A DNA stretch of 5,032 nt, taken from contig JAGUYV010000261.1 in the NCBI GenBank assembly GCA_020061125.1, forward strand, positions 1 through 5,032. Reading direction: 5' to 3'. Positions 2,135-4,789 of this stretch are shown here, one piece after another. The DNA is from a bacterium (GTDB lineage: Bacteria; UBP15; UBA6099; DSWB01). The first letter of the stretch is position 1. Each line of letters opens with the position of its first letter. Both the position numbers and the translations under genes were made by a program. The notes beneath the pieces are model-generated. The model was not told the origin of the DNA, searched no databases, and saw only the letters and a program-made list of their open reading frames with translations.

Positions 2135-3841
2135 TCAAGCAGCGTTTGCGCCAAGTTGTTCATCGAGCAGGTTGAGTACGGAGCGCGGCAGGTCGTGGGC
2201 CAGGGTTGCGGCGCGCAGGTTGGATTGCTCCTGGAGCTGGGCTTTGACCATTTCCGTGGTCTCCTGGGCCATGTCCGCGTCCTCGATGGTTGAGCGTCCG
2301 TTTTCGGTTCCAAGGCTCTGGGCCATCATGTCGTCCAGGGTATGTTCGAGGCGCTTGCTAACAGTTCCTATCTCCGCGCGTTTGGCGGACACTTTCTCGA
2401 TAGCCGCGTCTATCTTCCCGATGGCCGCCCACGCACCATCTGTGCGGGTCAGCGTCACGCCCCACACACCGAGAGAGCCGCTGCCCATGTCTTCAAGAAC
2501 CACGCTGACCCGGTTGTCGCTTTGATTGTCAGGCCCCACCTGGAGCATCTGCTCGTCCGTTACATCGGCGAAGATGACATGAGAACTTGGGAATCCTACA
2601 AATGTCCAATCAGAATATGCTACTGTATTCCCATTTCCGCTGGATTCCACGTCTAAAACCAATGGTAATGCATTGATAGTTGCTTTGTTTACTTCTCCAT
2701 CTTCGACATTTAGTATGTAAATGTTTTGATTGTAAACATACGTCAAATAATTCCCAGCTAGGCCATACACACCACTGATACCTGTTAACGAGCGGATGTT
2801 TTTCACTTCTGTTCCGTTGTATTTTGCCCCAACAAAACCATTAGCTGTTTCGTGGAAATAAATTCTTTCTCCATCTCGTGAAAGGCTGGTGCCGGATGTC
2901 AAAACACCGTTAATCTGATAATTCACTTTACTTGCCAAATCGATTACATGAGCAAAACCATCACTGTACGCAATTCTTTTTCCGGTATCATCAACCGAAA
3001 TATCCTGTTCAATTACGAATGGTGTAAAAGTCAGCTGTGTTTTATTGTTGCCATCAAAATCAATCATAAAAATATCATTATTCTGTTCGAAAACCACCTT
3101 TTCTCCATTTCCTGAAAATGTGTACCACTGATAGTTATTGTCTAAATAAGTGATTTGCCCATCAGTTGTATTATATGACATAAGATTGCCATTAGATGAA
3201 TAAATGACTCTTGTTCCATCATTTGAAACAGAATCTCTACCGATCATTTCGACATCAGAACTATTCGTAATTCTTTTCGCATTAGTGCCATCAGCATTGG
3301 CCACATAAAGGTCAAAAGAACCATCCCATTTCGTGTAGGCAATTGTGCTGCCATCACCTGAGAGAGATATGTAACTCGTATTAGCAATCGTTATTCTATT
3401 TGATGATTTCTGATAATCCCCATTTACATACAACAAATCTTTGGTGTTGTATTTTGTAGAATCTGATACCTGGTCAATTGCCTCTCTTAATGCATCTGAC
3501 TCATTCTGTAATTTCTGCCTGTCGGACAGAGTCAGCGTGGCTTCGTTAGCCGCGCGCACCGCGAGTTCCTTCATGCGCATGAGCATGTCCTGGATTTCGG
3601 CCAGGCCCGCATCCATGGTGTTGATGAGCTTGATGCCGTCCTGGATGTTGCCCGCAGCCTGGCGCATGCCACGGATTCGCGCTTTCATGCCCGAACTGAT
3701 GCCCAGGCCGCTGGGGTCGTCCGCCCCCTTGTTTATCCGCAATCCGGATGACAACCGCTCCACGGCATTGCTCCCAGAGCGCGCTATCTGGCGGTTCCAG
3801 TTCAACGCTTTCTGCGCGGCTGTGTTGGTGACGAAACTCAT
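2135..3841 (-). CDS. fliC: Flagellin with a seven-repeat beta-propeller in place of its variable domain
   Basis: This 568-residue protein is a flagellin, the polymerising subunit of the filament outside the cell. Residues 1-145 are the N-terminal D0/D1 helices: MSFVTNTAAQKAL, RLSSGLRINKGADDPSGLGIS (29-49), NIQDGI (65-70), RMKELAVRAAN (89-99) and the T-KYNTKDLL end of D1 (129-137). Residues 437-568 are the C-terminal D1/D0 part: DNRVSVVLEDM, IGKIDAAIEKVSAKRAEIG, RLEHTLDDM, IEDADMAQETTEMVKAQ and a final LPRSVLNLL. Residues about 150-436 instead hold seven PD40/TolB-like blades and would face outward. There is no cysteine, as is usual in filament proteins. The frame extends upstream to an ATG at 3889, but that codon overlaps the predicted -10 box; family alignment also favours the ATG at 3841. 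The Shine-Dalgarno is poor (AAAAGAAAG). The C-terminus runs DEQLGANAA past the point where most flagellins end. Confidence 0.93.
   Translation of the reverse strand: MSFVTNTAAQKALNWNRQIARSGSNAVERLSSGLRINKGADDPSGLGISSGMKARIRGMRQAAGNIQDGIKLINTMDAGLAEIQDMLMRMKELAVRAANEATLTLSDRQKLQNESDALREAIDQVSDSTKYNTKDLLYVNGDYQKSSNRITIANTSYISLSGDGSTIAYTKWDGSFDLYVANADGTNAKRITNSSDVEMIGRDSVSNDGTRVIYSSNGNLMSYNTTDGQITYLDNNYQWYTFSGNGEKVVFEQNNDIFMIDFDGNNKTQLTFTPFVIEQDISVDDTGKRIAYSDGFAHVIDLASKVNYQINGVLTSGTSLSRDGERIYFHETANGFVGAKYNGTEVKNIRSLTGISGVYGLAGNYLTYVYNQNIYILNVEDGEVNKATINALPLVLDVESSGNGNTVAYSDWTFVGFPSSHVIFADVTDEQMLQVGPDNQSDNRVSVVLEDMGSGSLGVWGVTLTRTDGAWAAIGKIDAAIEKVSAKRAEIGTVSKRLEHTLDDMMAQSLGTENGRSTIEDADMAQETTEMVKAQLQEQSNLRAATLAHDLPRSVLNLLDEQLGANAA
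2534..3394 (-). other. Region encoding the seven-blade beta-propeller domain of the flagellin
   Basis: This part of the flagellin gene encodes residues about 150-436. Six repeats show a strand motif like SxDGxxIxY: SGDGSTIAY (161), SNDGTRVIY (206), SGNGEKVVF (243), DDTGKRIAY (284), SRDGERIYF (321) and SGNGNTVAY (401). A diverged seventh, LAGNYLTYV, sits at 361. The conserved glycine recurs at 164, 209, 246, 287, 324, 363 and 404. Most repeats continue with a second strand and a DG-type turn (DLYVANADG, DIFMIDFDG, NIYILNVEDG), then a basic or polar stretch ending in T, as in TolB and PD40 proteins. Seven units of about 40 residues predict a closed seven-bladed propeller. No enzyme active site was recognised, so binding of a protein, glycan or surface is the more likely role, by inference. 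Confidence 0.8.
2575..3535. other. AT-rich segment inside the GC-rich flagellin gene
   Basis: Hand counts give about 37% GC for 2641-2700, 33% for 3001-3060 and 30% for 3061-3120. Within the same gene, 2161-2220 is 70% and 3601-3660 is 62%. The change falls near residue 103 on one side and near residue 423 on the other. The segment therefore includes the propeller and also the last conserved part of N-terminal D1 (about residues 103-145). Border positions are approximate. The pattern suggests the segment was acquired from a lower-GC source, probably from another propeller-bearing flagellin gene. Confidence 0.8.
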
Positions 3842-3887
3842 TGCCGTATGCTTTCTTTTCGTGAATTGTAAAAGCCTTCTGTTTACC

Positions 3888-3915
3888 ATATCGTCTCACT
3901 TAAAGTAAAACTTTA
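3888..3915 (-). promoter_or_regulatory. Sigma28 (FliA)-type promoter of the flagellin gene
   Basis: On the minus strand TAAAGTTT (3908-3915) matches the sigma28 -35 element exactly. GACGATAT (3888-3895) matches the -10 GCCGATAA at 6 of 8 positions, including the CGATA core. The spacer is 12 bases, against the usual 11. Late flagellar genes are normally under sigma28, so the position is as expected. The start of transcription would be near 3881, giving a leader of about 40 bases before the ATG at 3841. The -35 box is one arm of a small inverted repeat (TTAAAG at 3900-3905, CTTTAA at 3911-3916). Confidence 0.65.
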
Positions 3916-4168: not shown

Positions 4169-4789
4169 ATGCAGGCAGCCGGGGCGGAAGAACAAAACAC
4201 ACAGGCCGGACGGCCGAGCGTCAAGGCCGCCATCGAGCAGGCCGCGGCGCGCCTGTTCGCGGAGCAGGGGTTCGGCGCGACCGGGGTGCAGCAGATCGTG
4301 GATGCGGCCGGCGTGAACAAGGCCATGCTGTACTACTATTTCCGGGGCAAGGAGCCGCTGTACGATGCGCTCATCGGCCAGGGCCTGGCCCTGCTGCAGA
4401 GCGCGGTGTGCGTGGCCGAGCAGGACCTGAATCTGCCCGTTGACAAGCGCCTGAAACGGTTTCTCGCCACTTACCTGTCCCTGGTGGCCGGGAATCCGGA
4501 TCTGGCGCAGATCATTTACCGCGAAGCGCTGCGCGTGGGCGAGCACGAGCGCCCCGCGGCCGTGGAGCAGTTCCGCGAATGCGTGCGCAGGCTGGCCGCG
4601 GTCCTGGAATCCTGCGCCGGGGAGCTGGACACGGACACGGATTTCACGCTGGCCGCGTACTCGCTCTTCGGCATGGCCAACATGTTCATCCAGCGGTATG
4701 TGGTCACGCGCGAGGCTCTAGATGTGGCGCCGCTGGTGGAGCATATCGCGGATCTGTTTCTGTACGGCGCGGGCGCGAAGAACTATTAA
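4169..4789 (+). CDS. TetR/AcrR-family transcriptional repressor
   Basis: This 206-residue protein has the TetR-family layout and usual length. Residues about 16-68 form the DNA-binding domain: helix 1 (VKAAIEQAAARLFAEQGFGAT), then the helix-turn-helix with QQIVDAAGVNKAMLYYYFRGKEPLYDAL, which carries the signature G-V-N-K and Y-Y-Y-F-R-G-K-E. The rest (about 75-206) is the helical domain that binds a small ligand and dimerises, with the motif LAGNPDL-type turn (VAGNPDLAQIIYREA, 106-120) common in this group. Proteins of this type release DNA when they bind a ligand and often control efflux or envelope genes. The ATG has AAGGGGG about 6 bases upstream. The palindromic cluster at 4113-4139 is its probable operator. 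The ligand cannot be told from the sequence. Confidence 0.92.
   Translation: MQAAGAEEQNTQAGRPSVKAAIEQAAARLFAEQGFGATGVQQIVDAAGVNKAMLYYYFRGKEPLYDALIGQGLALLQSAVCVAEQDLNLPVDKRLKRFLATYLSLVAGNPDLAQIIYREALRVGEHERPAAVEQFRECVRRLAAVLESCAGELDTDTDFTLAAYSLFGMANMFIQRYVVTREALDVAPLVEHIADLFLYGAGAKNY

Follow-up and report, generated by a model that had tools for sequence, protein, structure and literature searches.

A flagellin with a predicted seven-bladed PD40-type propeller between its conserved arms

Here, we describe a bacterial flagellin (P0001) in which the surface-exposed position of the D2/D3 domains appears to be taken by a seven-bladed beta-propeller of the PD40/TolB type. PD40 propeller flagellins are real and rare, and domain-bearing flagellins were already known. 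The complete reading, which we hold with fair but far from full confidence, is that of a propeller-bearing flagellin of recombinant origin that is expressed late among flagellar genes, is displayed on the filament and has a binding role, with recombination, late expression, assembly and binding all being inferred.

The gene, its propeller and its promoter

The window, that is, the whole stretch of DNA analysed, is an entire 5,032-b contig (G000:C422) of a draft genome (4.1 Mb, 513 contigs, 79% complete), which alone represents its genus in the collection. The reading frame at 2135-3889 on the minus strand encodes 584 aa from its earliest ATG, but translation probably starts at M17 (3841) rather than at this first ATG (3889), because the latter overlaps the -10 element of the putative promoter (Table 1). 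The neighbours in the window are an SH3-domain protein, a CheX-like protein and a TetR-type regulator (1-795, 866-1363 and 4169-4786); the contig contains no further filament genes, and no diversity-generating repeats or RNA elements were found in it.

Table 1. Features of the propeller flagellin locus, in window coordinates
Feature	Position	Strand	Basis and remarks
Stop codon of propeller flagellin	2135-2137	-	
Propeller flagellin CDS (P0001) from likely start M17	2138..3841	-	568 aa, begins MSFVTNTAAQKALNW
Flagellin C-terminal helical region	2165..2422	-	residues 490-575; Pfam PF00700, 4.6e-17
Predicted seven-bladed PD40/DPPIV-type beta-propeller	2534..3397	-	residues about 165-452; Pfam, AlphaFold2, motif shuffles
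Predicted blades (approximate residues)			169-216, 217-253, 254-292, 293-331, 332-372, 373-410, 411-452
AT-rich tract, codons 126-438	2576..3514	-	GC3 fit; end of D1-N and nearly whole propeller
Flagellin N-terminal D0/D1 helical region	3431..3841	-	residues 17-153 of 584-aa ORF; Pfam PF00669
Putative sigma-28 (FliA)-type promoter TAAAGTTT-N12-GACGATAT	3888..3915	-	shuffles and pattern count

Both conserved D0/D1 helical regions, which a preliminary description of this DNA had recognized at the two ends, are borne out by Pfam matches above cut-off, to Flagellin_N (residues 21-153, 2.6e-30) and to Flagellin_C. The part between them, correctly placed by that description at 2534-3394 (residues 166-452 of the reading frame), exceeds the curated cut-offs of DPPIV_N (PF00930; 2.2e-9, 37 bits against 22) and PD40 (PF07676; 1.8e-4, 21.8 bits against 20.9) and matches no flagellin D2/D3 family in Pfam, a comparison on which the propeller had been staked. 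The claim of seven repeats stands; we find them to be 37-48 residues long, with the starts listed in Table 1. The motif S-x-[DN]-G-x-x-[IV]-x-[YF] is intact in five blades (repeats 1, 2, 3, 5 and 7), takes the variant form VDDTGKRIAY in repeat 4 and is degenerate in repeat 6. The insert contains 6 motif matches (five blade motifs and an extra one at 231), whereas 20,000 shuffles of its residues averaged 0.32 matches and never exceeded 4.

The insert was modelled twice with AlphaFold2, the input alignments being built from PD40 proteins of named genomes. The better model (residues 158-462, 29 sequences, flagellin arms excluded) has a mean pLDDT of 76 and a pTM of 0.73, with poor confidence in four ten-residue blocks at about 348-387, corresponding to one blade, where the alignment is mostly uncovered. 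In VIA-align, the best match is the propeller of an S9 carboxypeptidase (Z 21.5, rmsd 2.8, 252 residues aligned), followed by tricorn (Z 19.9), oligogalacturonate lyase (Z about 18) and many closed propellers (Z 18-20), among them WD40 ones (Z 18-19), with model residues about 5-305 aligned; the top Foldseek matches are all propellers, TolB occupying ranks 2-5, with TM-scores up to 0.61. The model matches seven-bladed propellers over its whole range, as foreseen, and on this prediction the insert is very likely a closed seven-bladed propeller, with one blade of low confidence and the arms left out.

P0001 does not qualify as a whole-protein TolB: TIGR02800, which would top the NCBIfam list if matched over its 343-bit cut-off, is absent from the best 25 of the 28 NCBIfam families matching the protein, and even the sister flagellin C487 of the same genome stays below that cut-off, at 301.6. 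Neither is it a flagellinolysin, its insert being a PD40 propeller: P0001 contains no HExxH, and the flagellinolysin family NF033876 matches only its C-terminal flagellin part (43 bits against a cut-off of 205).

The near-consensus sigma-28-type site ends 46 nt upstream of M17, its score is equalled in none of 200 shuffles, and its pattern occurs once in the window, with 0 occurrences expected. A similar promoter, TAAAGTTT-N12-GCCGATAA, precedes an FlgL homologue of the same genome (C51), located after an FlgK-like gene, and the same type is found about 310 nt before the reading frame of a propeller flagellin (L255) from another genome, G275. Most other flagellins of the genome (G000) have no such site within 220 nt, and therefore the set is not uniformly under such control. 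We infer from the sequence alone, without transcript data, that the propeller flagellin belongs to the late-transcribed flagellar genes.

The late flagellar type of the putative promoter, together with the full length and strong Pfam scores of both D0/D1 halves, also speaks against the possibility that P0001 is not a filament component but a secreted flagellin derivative, which would leave by the flagellar export route and then be set free or kept as an adhesin or filament-junction protein. There is precedent in Vibrio for secreted flagellin-homologous proteins beyond filament subunits, as far as the consulted portion of the source goes (PMC6692518), and the C-terminal D0 appears, by eye, to diverge from ordinary flagellins over its final 30 residues; we nevertheless consider this scenario distinctly unlikely. 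Incorporation into the filament, the reading we prefer, is inferred from the flagellin fold, in the absence of expression, export or filament data.

Precedents and related flagellins

Sialidases are six-bladed propellers, and propellers gate S9 peptidases and tricorn. Flagellin hypervariable regions harbour 61 domain types according to the main text of an earlier survey (Eckhard 2017, PMC5595980), where the top-ten inserted domains include metallopeptidase (86), vWFA (21) and Sialidase (10). The words “propeller” and “WD40” are absent from that main text, in which the Sialidase and vWFA flagellins are listed without being characterized. Thus, the statement in the preliminary description that no described propeller-bearing flagellin was known to its author has to be softened in view of the 10 Sialidase flagellins (PMC5595980). 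For the PD40, TolB or WD40 type, no description of a propeller flagellin was found in the literature, supplements and preprints being outside the scope.

P0001 resembles flagellinolysin (FlaMP), as presented in the main text of PMC5595980, in that an entire additional domain takes the hypervariable place between the D0/D1 arms and in the lateral spread of this architecture, and HExxH flagellins are present in the same genome and order (C328, L081-L083); it differs in that its insert is a PD40 propeller without HExxH. The Sialidase and vWFA flagellins (Table 1 of the same paper) likewise carry an extra domain between Flagellin_N and Flagellin_C, but the propeller of P0001, unlike that of the Sialidase flagellins, is of the PD40/DPPIV family and has seven predicted blades. 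The repeat motif and predicted seven-bladed fold are shared with TolB/PD40 and S9-peptidase (DPPIV_N) propellers, although in P0001 the propeller lies between flagellin arms, without the TolB N-terminal domain or the S9 hydrolase domain. The giant flagellins of marine gammaproteobacteria are similarly normal apart from an enlarged surface portion, but no propeller is reported in the consulted portion of the source (PMC6248924).

The genome contains 21 Flagellin_N matches, including FlgL and contig-edge fragments. Two other flagellins, both of native base composition, carry propellers, namely, C487 (PD40 1.1e-54; Pectate_lyase22 1.3e-7) and C423 (PD40 4.4e-5, after a long DxDGDG tract, with Flagellin_C just below cut-off). 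Pfam supports a VWA insert in C69 and, less strongly, one in C189, whereas in C287 and C433 (LDATASM, FDGTGSM) such inserts are suggested only by eye, without a Pfam match. C328 has the motif HEMTH, and its match to the flagellinolysin model (8.8e-23) falls short of the cut-off; related HExxH flagellins occur in order members G002-G004, and flagellins of the C423 kind in G002 and G006, the PD40 architecture recurring in G002. The DxDGDG tracts, which are thrombospondin-3-like and of calcium type, precede the PD40 propeller in flagellins of about 1,020 aa (L019:1824-4904 in G000:C423 and L095:611-3676 in G002:C138). The VWA or VWA-like inserts (L017:1921-3450, L018:1877-3496, L022:3-1739 and L024:1469-3085) have MIDAS-like motifs, and such flagellins are also encoded in G001 and G006 of the same order.

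Profiles of propeller flagellins were searched in 386 widely drawn genomes and 398 of one phylum, with the caveat that divergent propellers could escape. The search for the same architecture, as proposed at the outset, succeeded in the same genome (C487, C423), in G002 and in G275, a member of a class with two genomes in the collection and, among the genomes searched, the only one outside the order of P0001 to encode PD40 flagellins. Its two PD40 flagellins (PD40 1.1e-14 and 3.8e-8) are L255, of 547 aa, and the second half of L121. The latter locus (L121:1431-4931, G275:C334) is a 1,167-aa reading frame in which a flagellin with a HEMIH peptidase-like insert of flagellinolysin type is followed, head to tail, by one with the PD40 propeller. 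The D0/D1 tree separates the G275 lineage from the order of P0001.

Several candidates were rejected. An Acetoanaerobium flagellin (27% identity, 97% of query) is an ordinary flagellin without a propeller by Pfam, and the flagellins examined from G052, G261 and the G058 phylum are, despite full-length alignment to the propeller profile, ordinary or, in one case, of HExxH type, and lack PD40-like repeats. Separately, a 635-aa flagellin of G058 (L263:1501-3405) has central DGGYI-type repeats without a Pfam match, perhaps of another propeller family; G138 and G275 encode giant flagellins of 1,559 aa (L259:970-5646, L260:161-4837) that contain many repeated short units of beta-rich appearance; a 479-kb viral contig from IMG/VR (L126:1079-5782) encodes a protein of >1,500 aa composed of many PD40 repeats; and a 2.63-Mb Acetoanaerobium record in PLSDB, NZ_CP154629.1, labelled plasmid pTPELB2, bears a flagellin and resembles a chromosome.

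Base composition and origin of the central segment

A GC3 fit with two breakpoints (lnL -329, compared to -392 without a break; support intervals 124-131 and 436-444) sets codons 126-438, with a GC3 of 0.33, apart from the rest of the gene, with 0.69-0.71. The left break falls inside the conserved D1-N helix, about 30 codons ahead of the propeller. Of the parts not in the tract, segments 60-124 and 445-584 have their best matches in flagellins of the own order (scores 196 and 269, versus 162 and 190 for other lineages), whereas for the D1 tail within it (126-158) other lineages score slightly higher (82 versus 70). Codons 126-438 are, judging from these signals, a probable foreign segment. Because the AT-rich tract begins inside the conserved D1 helix, the donor would have been a foreign flagellin already equipped with a propeller, so that recombination, with the left crossover in conserved D1, may have swapped in the centre of an AT-rich propeller flagellin gene; this suggestion rests on 33 D1 residues and on GC3. 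The G275 loci, with 30-32% GC, demonstrate that AT-rich propeller flagellin genes exist; G275 as the donor is not shown.

The sharp GC shift at both ends of the tract, in a gene on a short, 5,032-b contig of a metagenome-assembled genome in 513 contigs, might alternatively reflect an assembly chimera of flagellin genes from two organisms. We regard this as very improbable: the reading frame and the correct domain order are kept at both junctions, long shared k-mers are unlikely given the strong composition difference at the breakpoints, and the composition of the genome's two other propeller flagellins is native.

Two further origins were considered and set aside. A free-standing propeller donor did not emerge, as the named PD40 relatives are spread over many phyla, include no flagellin and feature no prominent single donor. 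Nor is one common origin of the propeller flagellins supported: against the other flagellin propellers, the propeller of P0001 scores no higher than against PD40 proteins that stand alone. By score, the propeller of C487 pairs with those of G275 and that of C423 with that of G002, and propeller carriers do not form one clade in the D0/D1 tree, in which support inside the order is weak.

Filament display and possible functions

In the recombinant flagellin that we favour, the subunit would pass unfolded along the flagellar channel, acquire its fold beneath the cap and polymerize via the conserved D0/D1 arms, placing propellers at regular spacing on the filament. The propeller would most likely bind an external protein or polysaccharide without being catalytic, a role guessed from the biology of other propellers and without ligand data; we prefer it because P0001 itself shows no match to a catalytic domain or a lyase family.

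Alternatively, the propeller could be catalytic, e.g., with a lyase-type site, or could gate substrates for a metallopeptidase flagellin in the same filament, C328 being such an HExxH flagellin. This remains possible because the model comes closest to the propellers of S9 peptidases and tricorn, oligogalacturonate lyase (Z about 18) likewise ranking high, and because the propeller flagellin of G275 is fused to a flagellinolysin-type one; the sister C487 also matches Pectate_lyase22 (1.3e-7). However, P0001 matches neither Pectate_lyase22 nor peptidase catalytic domains in Pfam, and a common fold is no proof of activity, so that we deem this explanation unlikely, albeit worth keeping in mind.

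Within its species, P0001 would be one of several functionalized flagellins, with propellers, VWA or HExxH peptidase domains, that share the filament or alternate with plain flagellins. The filament could also be mostly plain flagellin, the propeller gene being silent or minor. Tentatively, and with less assurance than we would need to endorse it, the filament of this lineage may be seen as a modular display organelle, in which about twenty flagellins with interchangeable centres co-assemble or alternate, modules being gained by recombination in D1, even across phyla.

With these findings, the concept of functional flagella, so far tied to one enzyme, comes to cover a whole set of binding and catalytic domains within a single genome, with a probable capture event still readable in base composition. 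Furthermore, they provide natural examples for testing how large a folded domain a flagellin can carry, and point to the filament as a possible display rod for binding and cutting modules.
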